DNA of 56,987 nucleotides from Elusimicrobiota bacterium (GTDB lineage: Bacteria > Elusimicrobiota > Elusimicrobia > JACQPE01), in NCBI GenBank assembly GCA_016180815.1, contig JACPAN010000028.1:1-56987 (forward strand), written 5' to 3'. The notes under the pieces were generated by a model that had not been told where the DNA came from, ran no database searches, and was given only the letters and a program-made list of their open reading frames with translations. Positions within the stretch are counted from its first letter, which is position 1; the number at the start of each line of letters is the position of its first letter. The translations under genes were made by a program, and so were the position numbers. Shown piece after piece: positions 53,201 through 56,486 of this stretch.

Positions 53201-54458
53201 GGTTCCCTCAAACTCAGCTTTTGCCTGGGGAGAGGTCTTTGTGTTCCCTAATCCTGCCAGGGGAGGCAAGAAGCCGGTGTTCCATATTGAAGCGGGAATC
53301 GCGGATGAGATAGCTATACGCGTCTATGACATGAGCGGGGAACAGGTTGTTGAGACTGCGATAGGAGGCGTCCCCCAAGTAGTGGATCGAGGAGGCGCAG
53401 GGCCTAAATACGCCTATGAATACACCCTGGATCAGGATTTACCCAGCGACGTTTACCTTTATGTGATCCAGGCCAGAAGAAACGGGCAGACGCTTAAGAA
53501 GACGGGGAAGAAAAGATTAAAAAGGAAAAAGACCATGATAGTAGGGAGAAAAGAAAAACGCGCGGTGGAGGTGGCCCTCTGGATCGTCCTGGCAGTTGCT
53601 TTGGTAGGCGTTGTATTTGCGGAGAACCAAAGCGGGTTCTCTTTCCTAAAGATCGGGGTAGGAGCCAGACCCATTGGATTAGGCTCCGCTTACACTGCCA
53701 TTGCCAATGATGCCACCAGCCTGTACTGGAACCCGGCGGGATTGGCCAGCCTTCACAAAAAAGAGTTCTCCGCCATGCACGGAGAGTGGTTATTAGGTTC
53801 CACTTACGATTTCCTTGGCATGGGGGTTCCTTCAAGAATCGGAACCCTTGGCTTTGGGGTTTCCATGTTGTCTTATCCAGATCAGCAGGGCAGAGATGAG
53901 CAGGGTAGATTAACCTCTAGCTTTACCCCAAGAAGCAGCGCTTTTAATCTGGCTTTAAGCAGAAGGGTTGTTGTGGGAACACAATTGGGATTAGGGGTTA
54001 AACTGATCCAAAGTCAGATATCGAGCGATAAGGCGCAAGGGGTTGCTCTAGACCTGGGAGCTATTCGTTACATGAACCAGGCGCCGGTTTCTATCGGTTT
54101 TGCTCTCCAGAATATAGGGCCAGGGATTCAATTTATCAATGAGCAGACAAAACTGCCATTAACAGCGGCAGGCGGCGTTGGGGTGCATGTCCTGGGCGCG
54201 TTGACCCTGGCTGCCGATATCAAGCACCGCATCTATGACAGAAAAACTACTTGGGCTGTTGGGACGGAATATAGTTTGATCCCATCCTTCAGCCTGAGAA
54301 CAGGCTATGCCCTAAGCAGTAGGCTGAACAGCGAAGCCCTTTCCGGGCTGGGGGCAGGGTTTGGAATGCGGATGATGGGCTATAGGTTAGATTACGCGAT
54401 TACTCCTTTTGGGGAGTTGGGGAATGCGCACAGGGTGAGTTTGACGGCCCGTTTTTAA
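32295..54458 (+). CDS. Giant secreted surface protein (reads through into a PorV-like protein)
   Basis: One uninterrupted frame of about 7,387 codons. A signal peptide (about 1-24) is followed by a fibronectin-III-like start, two tandem roughly 300-residue copies each with a GGCY motif (33.2 and 34.0 kb ends), a LamG-like module (about 34.4-34.9 kb), and OmpL47/Ig-like units marked DNTAP. Six cassettes of about 610-750 residues follow; each begins with RENNTVYATSRDTFGF-type text (near 36837, 38665, 40556, 42489, 44735, 46970). Each then has a carbohydrate-binding-like module (EAEDxxN, YEGDVLP), a VETPF...IKFRSTLKR module and an Ig-like SPTVTI...DLAGN module. Shorter Ig units run to 51.48 kb, then an NHL propeller (to about 52.69 kb), a ZU5-like domain (52.77-53.19 kb) and a FlgD/type 9-like C-terminal domain (FPNPARGG, to about 53.52 kb). 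Probably a surface adhesin. The true end may be near 53520; see the PorV-like entry. A GTG at 32289 is an alternative start. Confidence 0.8.
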   Translation: MSRGRDSFVFAFVLSGISVSLWSQPQPVTDLYARPTATDTIALDWTAVAGADSYLIQRSTLSFEYQATVTGDVGQGFGYSVQIVTEAKTIAHPENPLSVTNEDLFKADEKFATLCANANAGFMLVSARFDVTGQLGNAHFEELRKDLNALGGCYQVKLRAEPITELQLIKGEKNSISGNMIIETEKRITVTGSSRTYANETTTIPVSGLRIVSLEQTFPQNTAVILSIDGANVFARTTQQNIQSVSRSFRDVGFNVVREIDLTMLIPPVAPDPLRGGTPAPMKGFVYQVTQPDPRIEFVQDGPNKEKLRFFAIPGLDPAAFTDFTYTATITGDAGQTFTDTILVASFSVRTVNFIKSENRSSDSEERHTFIMCADPDKVLVGAFLSDINKEGGGGTHVEHRREMFQRGGCYEVELVAFPVFFLGRSEINANMVIVQEKEEWVTVNGRVFRGENLSVSFPGIRLVFAHSLFDFLGFSATGNSAVFMKSDEPDPAPVVTVEGNNTITRPSGGGKAVYFTNMPSMQSFSNSASTTAFSEFQNVDLAAIRSPTFPDFTLRDFNYGVSVGDPNVDFFLTGANNREFRFRTLAGGKFILTTSPPAFDKGTALGPLEDGRVYHYGVFSRAANAVQKLPAVAATKAIAAPLQIPNEQMAQSQNLFCGTVQPNFDDPFYINPSSNSSIQNLEVRFNKNRPIRGKARILLDPNFIVREMAANDVIDNFDNRSAAGWGGFGDSDFVTNVSTGNFMLRLSTTAFSGRLVRTDSFGAGVEGEGSVSVLMKASRGFGGIYLESTDTSVPGPGGVAASLGIGEESPGWHHLEIRFQGGVAKSYLDGRFVAEVTIPKFSGRAGLFAQGRSATILEPAPSNPIVFFDDFQAFRTRSQISWDGRDANSQLVFDPAVSARRNLIFVLQAFDVFGSTITIQRDLQWETGAPVIGTDHRAKPHLVNSQLQKRILYPFTSDSVVRLVSGDLFLRRISGGETSVSLSAQGLSVNDSSSLLRLTLPSNITDGQWRLGAFPNSTFFYNRGCIQSNSIVPPFESQPFSVFVDSFVSVDSRHPALVPETGETFHDANSFTAPFVLRFKTFRRADRGLHVNLKIRDSAGSIIHDNTITLSSVTVDTISSSSMTWSGVAGSTVALFRYSLEAIEWHSAGGFDFLVTGLNVLQEGTLVQYPNAGTQLAAAGDLSRAQLIFPSSLNMTIAQSTGVPTGLSLVGAKFAGTSFAPLRTSAFFDVNPDGTVFSPLVAVLRIKPSPKSGDDPSQMSIFRYDTATNIWEPLPTTFDLTSGELIATTEKASLFAAFHFRGKETSPPISTLATGEPKFIGPDQRLFVASKTSLRIEAGDASGIEKSLFRVRKESLPPLETFSQPFTIAGEDGLRFVDFLSIDRLGNREAQKTQVIALDNTAPDADLIADDPGLAFSSGTVLYVTSRTPLKINSVDPLVNGVASGGAGGSFKDRTAGGSFAVTGGTFSMVGNDGSRIIDFFGVDNLGNQGSIKSRLLALDNTAPEITVTPNRALFQESGAFYATSSDTFHVAVRDGLSGVKSISLSINSEPFQSIASGHALSLKQEGNFFITIRALDQVGNLSQKQQSIVIDNTPPDFSGVSTVKVDAEDPANLIVPLEAVEIANGSIRLTENALVPPNGFNIHWEADVLPDQNTEPGRFDKTLSRGTETLLGDSIYRINLDACPASTNPLQSFGLVVLILRPNATLPDRSYVLETRFKTSGSALGSVLVSGPGSFESLNTSAVEATLFGAAPVALAAGQFHTFQIKKQPGGATDLLVDGNLVSKRPPSASPDLLSNVVLAISCKGSGQPASAEIDYFRLTTEPTVVGTSATIETPFIDADFVSNFRQAGSLGQGTIAHAFSLDGAVFQPIEQLPKTVLPERKIKFRSILARDSILKQAPSLDAVFVDAERGIVVTPTLLEPLRQDQPLLIEFTSSERLASSPTVTVGGEPAFDGNKPPSLSWRFNFTLPANTAGPLPVVIEGVDLAGNKGRDQTARIGVGDFFPTRTSLSIGQPQSGVEPVFVTPVTPLEFRLEDDLNRIGDKLGTGVQSLHLALEGISSTTINNPDPMAAVFTATITLLGIADGIYDLRFFGKDRIGNTEQVKTKRIGLDSLPPGSAFSGSRNFFRENDTVYAATRDTFGFVATDAGSGVRETFFSINDAPLTRFTQAFSFSQEGKVKIQFRSVDNLGHEEPLQTIQLVLENTPPTFSEAARISVEAEDLSNAMQGLDLADGALRLKTDTVSFFPDDQWDIRYEGEVLPDNNSPAFMVDRSFIRPEAPIKEKIEDGVYRILFGTSPASGSGGQLSFSLPATLNDQQGFTSEWRIRMLPNAIMNMSLRSQNFNSFIRLFNNTVEVPVFEGGQFVRLATMEVSPNAFHTYRITSQGGSFSLFVDHQLFVMGQATALSQVLLGSVNSVAIRLSFDPGGGGIDVDYIRANTQKTQPPGINPVTQVTGKLEGSVETPFLVFSTVTKLDNFAAIQTLGEGEILHEFTTDEAAFLPVAQLANVNLTTRQIKFRSTLRRASLENASPSLNSIAFDVIARLVEANPAMIGPHSFGPSLITFTASERLSQAPNVTIDKGQAEDGNIPPSLSWTFRFRPPQDQSSGVFPIKIEGFDFAGNLGTDASGRITIDSLAPQSVLTIGEPKLETDPILVGPRTIFSFLSEDGLITIGDKKGAGVKSLEVFIDNALVKSFNNADFSAPLASSMSLLGVSGGAHILSFTAKDALENPESAQTVAIIVDDVPPVTVLVPSRNLFQENNTLYATTLDTFSLATQDAASGVRETLFRIEEGTQTQFTQPIRFEREGEFKLRFHSIDNFDNVEPEQTFTIVVDTTAPTFSGEAPVMVEAEDPRNTIRELALSNGSLVLPTTTFFGQPTENWTFRFEGDGLPMNNDPPFGLFRSPFMDPSIKESTEGGIYKILFEGQAQTFRAGGLRPQNLNLSSATGYTVEWQMRMSVNPAFMGSGAFVNFRIADHNVFFMRVFQSGLLEVSLPQSPFIERFFVGSMDTFHTFRVISQNGIFILFVDQQRIIEVASIAFGFGEMDLAFNYQAGVGGQAELGYWRVNNQGSFPPTTHPQLVFEGPTEGSVETPFIPLPEVSRINGFKAAQDLGEGEIIHEFTTDGTTFLPVTQLIQADVFARQIKFRSSLKRALAEKRSPSLDSISFGLKRLVQSNPSVLGPKITASTITFIVSERLTHTPSVTAAGLHAFDGNLPPSFLWNFKFNLDSNLAGGSYPIEITGADLAGNSGFDGTGRIIVDRLPPRTTMFFEPGFVAASAGDLRQSVLNTQGLSFPLEFAGMGTLFSLSSIDDLLQVDDSSGPGIALQRATLGDMAALAFVNPKPGKGMPFVSTFTLFGLPDGVYPLGFTAQDAVGVEESTITRTVVLDTLPPATALSAGRPLFRENNTIYAMSRDTFGFVAQDNLSGVRETLLSINGGSFAVFNPLMPLSFNSEGKFLIAFKSVDQLGNQEPENVLSIVIDNTPPNFSGTTGVRIEVEDADNIFSRALFQEINGSLVLGTLTADPGSGSVARFEGDVLPSQNDPVFQREIGTQPNEQFFIEEIKNGIFDLTITQAAPPGDTFAAYSLNTLSLDPQKGYSMEVRARVKDNSQWGFNSRDLAGQTIGVSIFRISQSGINRAFFFGGSTVRLDDLNLTQFHTYLVKVSQNQVNYFMDGALVSQTTPVSFNVSPFRFFAQKSVMTIAGGIEIDYIRINTAGSEAPLPPDTVKPVLEAAIETPFIEVPEIQNINHFAAFQDVGEGEIVHEFSTDGNTFLSVGRLAEADLSAKKIKFRSTLKRVSGEKKSPSLDALAFELKRDVLVSTSAAGLASPVFISFIVSERLISSPTVTIDGGQAFDGNAPPSLSWKFRFQAKEDNPPGLHPIVISGNDLAGNFGIDDTGRLTIDSFAPQVNNISPRGGDVFVAEVSTINVNVSIQDNLDPKPAAAIKLFQVQNKGLLRGPTVFFAKDDDQISPRALDDGSWNMEVEGRDWVANSTKVLSGIFEVVHDTLTPRSNLAIGTPAFIAASPNDLKLSRLDSAAVSFPLTFVRSETLLTLNSIDDALRPLDQKGVGVLSHSVSLNGLFNRLFQNPNPQEGQVFVSSFTLSDILDGVFQLSFLARDALDQAESTQTIAVALDNTAPFTEFAGSRPLFKENNTVYATSRDTFGFVTRDNLSGVKETLFRIDAAPFESFNPSNPLTFPQEGRVEITFKSRDQLGNEEAERTVALIIDNTPPTFSGVNAVTIQAEDPLNTIVKLETFDGALRLPTQVSAATGEETWTFRWEGDRLASQTSPPFSVSRFIFGSGTIDESLEQDNYVVNFSFVPGGSFRILQLKQNDAGMSFAVGHTAAWRVKVAPSVPFLLAYRDGNYNHRISITAGDVSLSFEGEIPEIIAHVPNVTIEVGRFSSFARLGLDAAIFHDYRVTSKVGQISFYIDGKLIVEGRAQSLGSIAGRALEMQIGNGSEKGRVELDYFRVNNQGVFPPPVQLVGELEGTVETPFINLPEINAVNGFKTIQSVNEGDITHEFSTDGTVFKPVVQLSEANISAGRIKFRSTIKRASLDKTSPMLDAVSFDLKRHVMVSTAVAGPQGGIARITFITSEQLQSPPTVTVAGFPAFDGNNPPSFLWNFRFTPDSAMVDGSHSIHIVGADLAGNTGEDNTGRLNIDTKAPQIVIASPVGGERFLATIHTIPISVNIQDNLDTNPRITRLELVQRENTGLLQGPTVFAVASGQFLEPGSLDDGRWVLEAEGKDWVENSTRIASGIFEILHDTQPPRSLLSMGEPRFGAGDVDFVSLQTMLALSSTDDRFQVFDSTGLGVARQRLALDDVLARKFINPAPRPGEAFQSEFSLAGAPDGVYSLRFSAVDQGGIEESSQTVKIALDSEAPKTTLAASRPLFRENGTFYATSRDTFGFVATDNLSGVRQTLFSIDDGTLNSFDPTLPISFSSEGRFVLRFKSIDQVANEEAMQTVTIVIDNTSPSFSGAQAVRLEAEDSKNVVDGLESANGSLRLITRVIAADTPDDFWTIRYEGDVLPKNNQPPMNVLLQTGRIGESLENGIYSLLINDPFVHSDDTNELSWFNIGLDEIAGFTVEIRTKLKLVPHPGSSFFETSLFVTGGRSRVNLILKPNQACFRIGNTFPCVPVDVREFHVYRIVLKEGQVALYVDGSKALEGPARLGSQTTSKLLLNLFAFNAKDNGLEIDYLRMNPTTPLDPTPKLEGNLAGSVETSFVFLPEVTKINGFKAFEDVKEGEILHEFSMDSLTFLPVAQLSQADITSGKIKFRSTLKRSSLEQASPLLDGVSFELKREVLVSTAVVGPKRPLADIFFIGSERVISSPTVTIGGSPAFDGNLPPSMSWKFRFTAKEESVSGLHPVVIEGLDLAGNVGEDQTGRLTVDTLPPVIQFVSPRAGEKFAATVSSVAIQVTLNDNLDPSPQLAQDILLRQVANKGLKQGATVFVAANGTGIDPFVLDDGLWVAEASAQDWVFNSTFATSGVFEVVHDTLAPRSMVEVGEPKVAKDDLVFVSKRSRNFLTSIDDLVKVGDARGFGVALQKFSLNGRAPKEFINPNPVSGSLFSNPIALEEEADGVKLISFTASDLVSNLEEEKSKKLALDNTPPMTKLEVSTPAVTVDSITVVSAITPIEFLADDPVINQVAVGIGSTSFRVVLATETTPEEIPLALFSAGFTLAEGRYAIQFKSTDLLENEEPINKAEILSDGRPPAITITSPKEGDKFIATISSIPINVIVTDNLDPNPRFTRLELTELENRGLLRGATSLIVHSGEFIDPFSIDDGLWVLKAQAKDWVDNSTKVVSGVFEVIHDIQPPRTAIKMGDPKVEVTTAIPGTTPADPGLIFFTKNTPLVLDSIDDLISVGDEIGLGVALQKLLVNGVERSTFVNPNPGQGATFISSFTLAADEDGLYTLGFFADDIIGNREGIKIATVAVDNTTPQTVIAIGTPTFVLDSVRFINAGTLIGFNADDPLVNSVAVGVSTTEFRVDGAPFGVFASSFTLSEGIRTVDFKSTDRLGNEEAIKTQRLHVDATPPITSLRASAPFFENGFGGSFPDQVPGIKQYALPGFLYQLPSVDPVAEEVASGVLVTRYRSVPLGAPLGSLIEPSAQEKAAIDFIAVDPLDPNAPFGTGFSFGLAEGIHRVEFKSFDNVLNLEVLKGVTVYVDATPPQSQLIISSPCVRSDGTVISSKTPLTINANDPIVKDLASGLAKSFFKDFNNADFLSRDTRSNTETPFFVSASTPDGFVDVRFYSVDNVGNNEQVKSKTVVLDNTPPIIEFISPVTSTENPGLCKLVGGDQIRVIGTVKDKGTHLNNQIFDHFESYRVEFGLGSDPVSFTTIIDTVTQVSLENAVLASWDTSSLPEGVYTLKITAKDCVGNESEQRVQVIVSKPKLLLSLGRHGQGLGEFNQPSYIAVDPRNGDFWVSDQNNDRIQKFNSSGTFLLAIGPSPYQITIGTSSNSPQLFDNSAGITVSNSADSASASTALGYQTLSHNPNHNPPGQENNTNSNAGGNDNGNGQANSNAGGNSNGNSQTNNGNAGENGNANGQGNANSNSGGNGNTQGGGNNLAGNMNKPTGVAVEASGDLYAADRNKDRVLVFSSTGSIIRELSGNPYNFNKPHGLALDSQGNLYVADRNNDRIVKISTTTGEILQAVTTAIEQDFNKPQGVLAVDSQSQLYITDRNNDRVLIFSSTGGFKRQLGNGSGLSAGQFNKPDGIAINGKGFVYVSDQNNSRIQKFDPQGNPLLVFSVPKNDPESLNHPGGLAVTKEGDLLVADSNNAKVKKFGVEGELVVIASQGESDPSRSGLTKDGSLTTKVSKTVTKTSGGIVVHPQGAKVEIPANAVGSETITITVEPKTKAPSAKVSIAGNAAPAASDSSSGPYYQIIGQAIEFQPEGTTFNQPVTLTLPYNADELAGAKESDLIVAYYNPQTQQWEPLSGIAIDTGLKLAKAQTNHFSLYAVLAPMVPSNSAFAWGEVFVFPNPARGGKKPVFHIEAGIADEIAIRVYDMSGEQVVETAIGGVPQVVDRGGAGPKYAYEYTLDQDLPSDVYLYVIQARRNGQTLKKTGKKRLKRKKTMIVGRKEKRAVEVALWIVLAVALVGVVFAENQSGFSFLKIGVGARPIGLGSAYTAIANDATSLYWNPAGLASLHKKEFSAMHGEWLLGSTYDFLGMGVPSRIGTLGFGVSMLSYPDQQGRDEQGRLTSSFTPRSSAFNLALSRRVVVGTQLGLGVKLIQSQISSDKAQGVALDLGAIRYMNQAPVSIGFALQNIGPGIQFINEQTKLPLTAAGGVGVHVLGALTLAADIKHRIYDRKTTWAVGTEYSLIPSFSLRTGYALSSRLNSEALSGLGAGFGMRMMGYRLDYAITPFGELGNAHRVSLTARF
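51800..52020 (+). repeat. Asn/Gly-rich low-complexity repeat inside the giant gene
   Basis: About 70 codons of degenerate AAT/AAC-GGN repeats encode tracts such as NGNAGENGNANGQGNANSN. The tract sits between the first NHL blade (VSDQNNDRIQKF, about 51580) and the next (NKPTGVAVEASGDLYAADRNKDRV, about 52025). It reads as a flexible loop inserted in the propeller and as a likely site of replication slippage. Confidence 0.75.
53535..54458 (+). CDS. PorV/UPF0164-like outer-membrane protein (internal start in the giant frame)
   Basis: The last 307 codons of the giant frame look like an independent gene. An AAAGGA Shine-Dalgarno (53521-53526) sits 8 nt before ATG 53535. The protein then has its own signal peptide (basic MIVGRKEKRAVE, hydrophobic ALWIVLAVALVGVVFA). 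The mature part matches PorV/PorQ-type barrels: FLKIGVGARPIGLGSAYTAI, then DATSLYWNPAGLA, and a C-terminal VSLTARF. PorV proteins shuttle type 9 secretion cargo at the outer membrane. Just before the ATG, the +1 frame has TAA at 53518-53520, so removing one base from the A-run at 53511 would end the giant protein normally (TGKKD). An indel, real or in the assembly, is therefore likely. Confidence 0.75.
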   Translation: MIVGRKEKRAVEVALWIVLAVALVGVVFAENQSGFSFLKIGVGARPIGLGSAYTAIANDATSLYWNPAGLASLHKKEFSAMHGEWLLGSTYDFLGMGVPSRIGTLGFGVSMLSYPDQQGRDEQGRLTSSFTPRSSAFNLALSRRVVVGTQLGLGVKLIQSQISSDKAQGVALDLGAIRYMNQAPVSIGFALQNIGPGIQFINEQTKLPLTAAGGVGVHVLGALTLAADIKHRIYDRKTTWAVGTEYSLIPSFSLRTGYALSSRLNSEALSGLGAGFGMRMMGYRLDYAITPFGELGNAHRVSLTARF

Positions 54459-54471
54459 GCGAGGTATTTTG

Positions 54472-55629
54472 ATGTGTGAACAATGCGATGAGTTAGTGAC
54501 GGAAAAACTGCAAGATACTTTGGAGGGACTGGACCCAGAAACAATCAGCGTTAAAGGATTTCTTTCACATTGCTCCATCCTTCGCCATAGTCGCAATAAG
54601 AAGATCGCTTCTTTGCATCAGAGGATTTGGCACCAAGCGCTTCACACAAAAGACGGTCAGGATTTGATCCGATGCCTAAACGGGAAGGAAATAGACAAGC
54701 TTTTAGATCAATTTCCGGAGGACCCCAGATTTGGGCTTCGCTGGCTGGCCTGCCTCATTTTCCTTGCTCAAAACGACTGGAAGGATGCTTTGTTAAAACA
54801 AGAGGATTTCCGGACATTGATTTTGGATACGGGGATTGATTTGGGGGTACAAAGAGGCAAACTAAAGGGAATACACGCGACAGCAGGGGAAACAAACAAA
54901 AAGACAGATGCCGGCTTTGCGCCTCCCAAACACAATAACCCTAGGCGGCCATACCGCAGGCCTGGACCCTTGGATCCCAGCCAAATTTCCGTTGAATTTC
55001 TTCCTTTAAGTAACAGGGCGCGCAATATTTTGATGGTGGCCAGGGTTAAAACTCTGGGGGGTTTGGCAAAACTCTTAAAAAATGACCGATTGATCTGGAT
55101 CAGGGGCTGTGGGGATATATGTTTTGAGGAAATAACGAGCGTTGCCAAGCCCTATCTGGAACTCCTTTCAGGACCCTCTTGCAGCGCAATCCAATCCCTT
55201 AATGAGATCAATGATATCCCCACGATTCTTTCCACCCTTACTTCCCGCGAGGCTCTGTTCCTTGCCTTAAGAAGCGGTGTATTGGATGGAGACTACCGCA
55301 CCTTAGATAGGCTGGCCGGTATGTTTGGATGTTCCCGGGAGAATGTCCGGCGCATCGAAAATAAAGCGATCTTTAAGCTCTCCAGACTTCCCTGGCTCAA
55401 GGAGTCTATGGAACGCGGGCTCAATCTCCATCAAGCCCTGGGAGCGATCGCCTTAAACCGCAAAATAGAGGTCAACGGCGACGAACCGTCCGACCCGATC
55501 AGTCTGCTTGCCCAGGCGCTGCATAAGCTCCGGGAAGCCGAAGAAACCATTTTGATCAGGAAGGAAACCGAGGGGGAACGGATTCGGGGCAACCTCCTGG
55601 TAACCTCTAAAGGCGAAGAGTCATGCTAA
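54472..55629 (+). CDS. Regulator fusing an RNA polymerase alphaCTD-like and a sigma-70 region 4-like domain
   Basis: A 385-residue cytoplasmic protein. Residues 1-150 are helical and not recognised (two Cys at MCEQC). Residues about 172-232 (VEFLPLSNRARNILMVARV, then TLGGLAKLL, LIWIRGCGDICFEEI) match the helix-hairpin-helix fold of the RNA polymerase alpha C-terminal domain. Residues about 253-305 (LTSREALFLALRSGVLDG, RTLDRLAGMFGCSRENVRRI, ENKAIFKLSRL) match sigma-70 region 4, the -35-binding helix-turn-helix. No sigma region 2 is visible, so it cannot melt promoters itself. GAGG lies 7 nt before the ATG. It follows the PorV-like gene by 13 nt and overlaps the lipoprotein gene by 7 nt. Confidence 0.75.
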   Translation: MCEQCDELVTEKLQDTLEGLDPETISVKGFLSHCSILRHSRNKKIASLHQRIWHQALHTKDGQDLIRCLNGKEIDKLLDQFPEDPRFGLRWLACLIFLAQNDWKDALLKQEDFRTLILDTGIDLGVQRGKLKGIHATAGETNKKTDAGFAPPKHNNPRRPYRRPGPLDPSQISVEFLPLSNRARNILMVARVKTLGGLAKLLKNDRLIWIRGCGDICFEEITSVAKPYLELLSGPSCSAIQSLNEINDIPTILSTLTSREALFLALRSGVLDGDYRTLDRLAGMFGCSRENVRRIENKAIFKLSRLPWLKESMERGLNLHQALGAIALNRKIEVNGDEPSDPISLLAQALHKLREAEETILIRKETEGERIRGNLLVTSKGEESC

Positions 55630-56486
55630 AGACATTGGGGGTTGTCTTTTTTTGTTTCTTGTTGTCGTTTGCAACAGGGTGCTCTACGATTCCCAAAAAT
55701 AAACAGACCTCTGTTATTAGAGCTCAAGTGGAAGCTTCCGCACCGGAGCCAAATCCAGAACTCTTGGCTCGCCTGCAGTATTGGCACTCCCAGCAGAAAT
55801 ACCGGCGTCTACCTTTTACACCCGCTTTCCCTTTGCAGGCCTTGCACAAAGTCGCGATTAACCAGCCTTCCTCAATCCATGACCTGAGTGCCATTGATGG
55901 CGTGGGACGCCAGCATGCCAAAAAATACGGTTTTGAAATTTTGGAAATAATCGAAGGATTTAAAAAAAATGAAATACCACCTTGGTTAAAACCCGCAGGG
56001 GAAAAACCCCATTGGACCAAAGGGTTCCGGCTGGCAACGGACGCCCTGCCTTATCCCTCTGCCAAGATGCCGCACCCGTCGGTCAATAAAATCAATCTGG
56101 GCATTGCTGATTTGCAAAGAGTAGACGTTCAAGAGAAGGAATCTTTGATGGTGCTTGATTTTCTGCGGGCGGCCTTTGTCAATACGGGGCTTTTCCGCGT
56201 CACTGACCGAGCCAGCATGAGCAGGGTTCTTGCCGAACAGAAGTTCCAGATCGCCGTCTGCACCACGGACGATTGCGCCGTCAACCTGGGAAGGTTGTTA
56301 AAGATGGATAAAATGGCTTACGGAACAGTGTCCAAAATAAAGAATACGTATCATCTCGCCGTCAATGTAGTTGATATAGAGACGGCCGAAATCCAAGCTT
56401 CCCGCAGCGTGCAAGCCGGCTCTATGGACGAACTTGGCGCTGCCACTGTCTACCTTGCCGATATGATTTCCGGAGAGTTTAAATAG
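55623..56486 (+). CDS. Lipoprotein with HRDC-like and CsgG-like domains
   Basis: A 287-residue protein with a lipoprotein signal peptide and lipobox ATGC (Cys20). Residues about 44-114 resemble an HRDC domain: PELLARLQYWHSQQKYRRLP, then LHKVAINQPSSIHDLSAIDGVG, then HAKKYGFEILEIIEGF. HRDC domains bind nucleic acids in RecQ and RNase D and are normally cytoplasmic. Residues about 155-285 resemble the CsgG/TolB-like lipoprotein fold: INLGIADLQR, GLFRVTDRASMSRVLAEQ, LGRLLKMDKMAYGTVSK, VNVVDIETAEI. It overlaps the regulator gene by 7 nt. An outer-membrane role in export or in holding extracellular DNA is speculative. Confidence 0.75.
   Translation: MLKTLGVVFFCFLLSFATGCSTIPKNKQTSVIRAQVEASAPEPNPELLARLQYWHSQQKYRRLPFTPAFPLQALHKVAINQPSSIHDLSAIDGVGRQHAKKYGFEILEIIEGFKKNEIPPWLKPAGEKPHWTKGFRLATDALPYPSAKMPHPSVNKINLGIADLQRVDVQEKESLMVLDFLRAAFVNTGLFRVTDRASMSRVLAEQKFQIAVCTTDDCAVNLGRLLKMDKMAYGTVSKIKNTYHLAVNVVDIETAEIQASRSVQAGSMDELGAATVYLADMISGEFK

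Follow-up and report, generated by a model that had tools for sequence, protein, structure and literature searches.

An uncultured Elusimicrobiota bacterium (assembly GCA_016180815.1) was found to encode a 287-residue putative lipoprotein in which an HRDC domain lies between the lipid anchor and a C-terminal domain of the LpoB/TolB_N-like type. HRDC domains are normally carried by cytoplasmic enzymes that process DNA or RNA, such as RecQ helicases and RNase D. The combination of HRDC, lipid anchor and LpoB-like domain looks new; every part of it is already known, and the combination is known from one genome. The chances are about even that the protein is lipid-anchored in the outer membrane, probably on the periplasmic side, that it acts as an adaptor of the cargo/PorV locus encoded upstream, and that its HRDC domain has been exapted as a binding module. 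An HRDC domain in an envelope lipoprotein would show this fold used outside the cytoplasm, and would offer a clean test of protein versus nucleic-acid binding by HRDC alone.

The window, i.e. the whole stretch of 56,987 nucleotides that was analysed (contig JACPAN010000028.1), carries the following features.

32289 to 54458, plus strand: giant ORF of 7389 aa (ORF and profiles), with Ig-like repeats, NHL repeats, a T9SS type A sorting tail (about 53241-53366) and then a PorV-family barrel
53547 to 54458, plus strand: PorV/PorQ-family outer-membrane barrel, sharing the frame of the giant ORF (NF033709 169 bits, above 90; UPF0164 39.1, above 21.4)
54469 to 55629, plus strand: alphaCTD-sigma4 regulator-like protein, 386 aa (Sigma70_r4 34.8 bits; RNA_pol_A_CTD 20.8, under the cut-off of 23.8)
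55623 to 56486, plus strand: HRDC lipoprotein gene, 287 aa (ORF)
55623 to 55682, plus strand: type II signal peptide with lipobox A-T-G-Cys20, the Cys codon at 55680-55682 (read from the sequence)
55752 to 55964, plus strand: HRDC domain, residues 44-114 (Pfam PF00570, shuffles, AF2 and Foldseek)
55965 to 56078, plus strand: linker, residues 115-152, without family match
56079 to 56483, plus strand: CsgG/LpoB/TolB_N/DUF3280-like domain, residues 153-287 (profile matches)
56259 to 56276, plus strand: Cys213 and Cys218 codons, a probable disulfide (paired conservation in alignment A1)

The protein starts with MLKTLGVVFFCFLLSFATGC, a hydrophobic signal peptide that ends in A-T-G-Cys20, as an earlier note on this DNA had read it; Cys20 is the lipobox residue by which the product would qualify as a bacterial lipoprotein. 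The HRDC domain, the linker and the C-terminal domain follow in this order. Envelope localisation is well supported, both by the protein's own lipobox and by secretion signals in its relatives.

The HRDC pattern noticed earlier in the sequence was confirmed by profile searches and by structure prediction. Pfam PF00570, which has a gathering cut-off of 23.8 bits, matched the whole protein with 30.5 bits and the excised segment of residues 44-114 with 34.4 bits (E 2.2e-8), and the NCBIfam RecQ model also matched these residues with its HRDC end (E 1.5e-4). Against a local profile of 20 HRDC domains from relatives the segment scored 30.3 bits, and the best of 20,000 shuffles, which permute the segment's own residues, reached 11.6. 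An AF2 model of residues 37-127 had a mean pLDDT of 81; its input, 17 aligned HRDC domains of relatives, biases it towards HRDC, and the sequence statistics, unlike the model, are independent of that HRDC-rich alignment. In Foldseek searches the model matched the E. coli RecQ HRDC with a TM-score by target length of 0.87 and an rmsd of 1.4-1.5 A, and D. radiodurans RecQ HRDC3 with a TM-score of 0.79. Its top PDB matches were the HRDC domains of RecQ and WRN (rmsd 1.4-1.8 A, E 0.01-0.11, probability 1.00), with Rrp6 and RNase D next. Single-sequence AF2 of the whole protein gave a pLDDT of 40 and was unusable, and a mixed alignment of HRDC and C-domain rows was discarded because MAFFT put the HRDC rows onto the C-domain. 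Among the homologues surveyed, none had a known periplasmic domain at the HRDC position. Since the profile score exceeds the cut-off and lies far above the shuffles, and the fold agrees, the homology is regarded as real and residues 44-114 are, on these statistics, a genuine HRDC homologue.

The genome is a draft in 39 contigs and the gene lies 0.5 kb from a contig end, which leaves room for an artefact, either an assembly chimera or a chance resemblance to HRDC. Such an origin is very improbable, since profile, shuffles and fold concur on HRDC, and the gene is a single uninterrupted frame; a chimera is unlikely to have joined three parts that fit each other and also kept the frame. Third-position G+C also remains between 0.51 and 0.58 from the signal peptide through HRDC and linker to the C-domain, and the neighbouring genes are alike (0.53-0.55).

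The C-terminal domain had been described in the earlier note as CsgG/TolB-like, which stands as far as a CsgG match is concerned (25.8 bits; Pfam cut-off 20.8), accompanied by a match to DUF3280 (31.5; cut-off 30.1), but the domain starts at about residue 153 and is intermediate between CsgG, LpoB and TolB_N, not CsgG itself. Because the CsgG match spans only positions 40-99 of the 210 in the profile and the domain has about 135 aa, a CsgG-type channel is unlikely; a CsgG secretion channel, with a full-length domain and barrel-forming hairpins, was rejected as a candidate. The window protein itself matches CsgG and DUF3280, and its relation to the LpoB/TolB_N-like superfamily comes through members of its 27-sequence family. 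Matched singly, 26 of these 27 hit CsgG, 26 DUF3280, 22 LpoB, 22 TolB_N and 14 FlgO, and LpoB is the nearest solved structure for the family profile (E 0.005). In alignment A1, Cys213 and Cys218 are both present in 24/27 sequences and both absent in 3/27, with no sequence having a single Cys. As the two cysteines are kept or lost together, they probably form a disulfide outside the cytoplasm.

The C-domain belongs to a family of secreted proteins that is large in Elusimicrobiota. The named loci with this family come mostly from Elusimicrobia, and most homologues with a readable N-terminus have a signal peptide or lipobox. Other modules found with the domain in relatives are the PorV/UPF0164 barrel, TPR, RCC1 and PEGA, and 36 of the 83 distinct members read contain a PorV-family outer-membrane barrel in the same protein. 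In barrel/C-domain fusions such as L006, L088 and L095 the C-domain is 38-46% identical to that of the window protein and the Cys pair is present. Directly downstream of a barrel/C-domain fusion lies the gene of L116, a short sister lipoprotein (lipobox LLSSC) with the C-domain and without HRDC, 45% identical over 119 residues, which comes closest to the window protein stripped of its HRDC. Another lipoprotein, L011, combines RCC1 repeats with the same LpoB-like domain in C-terminal position.

No other protein joining HRDC to the C-domain was found among 147 relatives, elsewhere in 341 genomes of the phylum, or in 38 named loci that were collected with C-domain alignment A2 and then scanned with the HRDC profile; a scan of genome contigs with the whole protein found no relative. 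Among the matches listed, each HRDC domain of a relative sits in RecQ, in RNase D or in a small HRDC protein that lacks a signal peptide, and a diverged second HRDC lipoprotein could lie among the weaker matches beyond those listed. In the literature searched, no description was found of an HRDC protein on a lipoprotein, in the periplasm or in the outer membrane. The small Elusimicrobiota HRDC proteins (L076, L077, L078, L079, L080 and L081) were rejected as instances of the same architecture, having an N-terminus of MKLKVFTLR type and no signal peptide; this N-terminus is conserved among them as MKLKVFTLR...EFQ.GKD..E.SEHF.

As the fusion is found in one genome only, selection on the arrangement cannot be demonstrated. 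This single occurrence fits a neutral or recent accretion, in which an insertion placed HRDC behind the lipobox and ahead of the C-domain as a mere spacer without a specific partner. In line with this, the window domain has a branch length of 10 in the HRDC tree and cannot be grouped with RecQ, RNase D or the small HRDC proteins (it is at most 30% identical to the relatives' HRDC domains compared), and relatives carry RCC1, TPR or nothing at the same position. Accretion is nevertheless considered unlikely: an unselected segment should have decayed, and here the HRDC core pattern is intact despite the divergence, the score is far above shuffles and the fold is confident.

The overlap of the lipoprotein gene with the alphaCTD-sigma4 gene is real, the stop codon of the latter ending at 55629 and the ATG of the former lying at 55623, which gives a 7-base overlap; a gap of 10 bases separates the barrel frame from alphaCTD-sigma4. 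In the regulator-like protein the sigma4 part is above the Pfam cut-off and the alphaCTD below it (20.8 vs 23.8 bits). Among 147 genomes none encodes a full-length relative of this protein; its relatives among the matches listed cover mainly the sigma part and are mostly RpoD-sized ORFs. Promoter and terminator scans of the locus gave sites no more numerous than in shuffles, and no terminator stood out between genes. The giant ORF/barrel, alphaCTD-sigma4 and lipoprotein genes look like one operon. The earlier proposal that the overlapping genes serve the same surface system is partly supported, by the overlap itself, by the barrel two genes upstream and by the C-domain/barrel fusions of relatives.

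The sorting tail of the giant ORF scored 29 bits (cut-off 23). At 53500-53620 of the window the PorV-family barrel continues the frame of the T9SS-type tail (...KKTGKKRLKRKKTMIVGRKEKRAVEVALWIVLAVALVGVVFA), whereas elsewhere in the genome the two are mostly separate genes; either the fusion is genuine, or a stop codon has been lost or an indel has occurred within an A/G-rich stretch. The genome has 28 PorV-family matches and 19 matches to the T9SS type A sorting tail. In 14 of these 19, the window pair at 53241-54455 included, a PorV-family gene follows the tail on the same strand at a distance of 93-273 bp, which suggests that each large cargo has a dedicated PorV-family barrel. To our knowledge, Elusimicrobiota are not usually listed among the T9SS phyla. 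At C2:111988-115131 a 1796-aa frame gave a three-piece match to the model of the T9SS translocon SprA (67, 48 and 43 bits; cut-off 200); it is a putative distant SprA-like protein, and a PorV-family gene is close to it. The HRDC lipoprotein has no second copy in the genome despite 13 further tail/PorV pairs; such loci do not generally include it, which is a point against the adaptor reading. In Elusimicrobiota, the link between LpoB-like domains and PorV-family barrels points to an envelope system that accompanies T9SS-type cargo and has been little described.

The HRDC domain might also act as a nucleic-acid catcher on the periplasmic side or at the surface, where its targets would be DNA to be taken up, DNA of biofilms or nucleic acid set free in the envelope. 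It retains the GVG hairpin of residues 93-95 within the helix-hairpin-helix-like IDGVGRQHAKKYG, and its net charge is +3 and its pI 9.5, values ordinary for HRDC domains; hairpin and charge are compatible with DNA binding and count against the adaptor reading. The genome encodes the DNA-uptake channel ComEC (164 bits) and no ComEA-type HHH_3 domain that exceeds the cut-off, the only match being one of 25 bits within a 1195-aa frame, so that another DNA receptor can be imagined. But comEC is located on contig 15 and the lipoprotein locus on contig 28, and the neighbours of the lipoprotein gene indicate a cargo/PorV barrel locus. Isolated HRDC domains of WRN and BLM moreover show weak DNA binding or none, undetectable or at about 100 uM (PMC4212688, PMC4446433), and nucleic-acid binding is not universal among HRDC domains (PMC4212688). 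Nucleic-acid capture is on balance doubtful, and its more specific form, a periplasmic or surface receptor in which HRDC replaces the ComEA-type helix-hairpin-helix and which is attached to a PorV-type envelope machine, is less probable still.

Three points favour a protein partner: the weak or absent DNA binding of the WRN and BLM domains, the packing of the BLM HRDC against protein (PMC4212688, PMC4446433), and neighbouring genes for exported cargo and a barrel; by this analogy, protein binding by the HRDC domain seems more likely than DNA binding. As an adaptor, the lipoprotein would be exported by Sec and lipidated at Cys20, as read from its sequence, and would fold outside the cytoplasm with a Cys213-Cys218 disulfide in the LpoB/TolB_N-like domain, as the paired conservation of the cysteines suggests. 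The C-domain may then engage the PorV-family barrel or its neighbours, in trans here and in cis in the fused relatives. The HRDC domain, derived from a cytoplasmic protein of RecQ/RNase D type, would keep its fold and bind a protein partner, e.g. the exported cargo or another envelope protein. Expression might be set by the alphaCTD-sigma4 protein of the apparent operon, as gene overlap alone suggests. We infer the partner contacts from fusions and gene order only. The adaptor reading is supported by the HRDC and C-domain profiles, the HRDC fold, the barrel fusions in 36/83 members, the barrel two genes upstream, L116 and the Cys pair.

HRDC domains are already known outside RecQ and RNase D. 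In Treponema denticola an HRDC accessory protein of diversity-generating retroelements occurs as a separate protein beside the reverse transcriptase (PMC4891356), likewise in genomes with surface lipoproteins; a link to such elements was rejected here, the genome having no RVT_1 match. Compared with the HRDC domains of RecQ and RNase D (PF00570), the domain described here shares a profile score over the cut-off, a helical bundle and a Foldseek fold match, but it is found on a lipoprotein without helicase or nuclease and on a long branch. LpoB is the activator of PBP1b, i.e. it binds and activates a class A PBP. With LpoB and the envelope proteins of the CsgG, TolB_N and FlgO types the protein shares its C-domain matches and the lipid anchor; it differs in having an HRDC domain between anchor and C-domain, and a CsgG-type channel is unlikely in its case. 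The PorV-barrel/C-domain fusions of other Elusimicrobiota have the same C-domain and Cys pair, whereas in the window the barrel and the domain are encoded by separate genes of one apparent operon.
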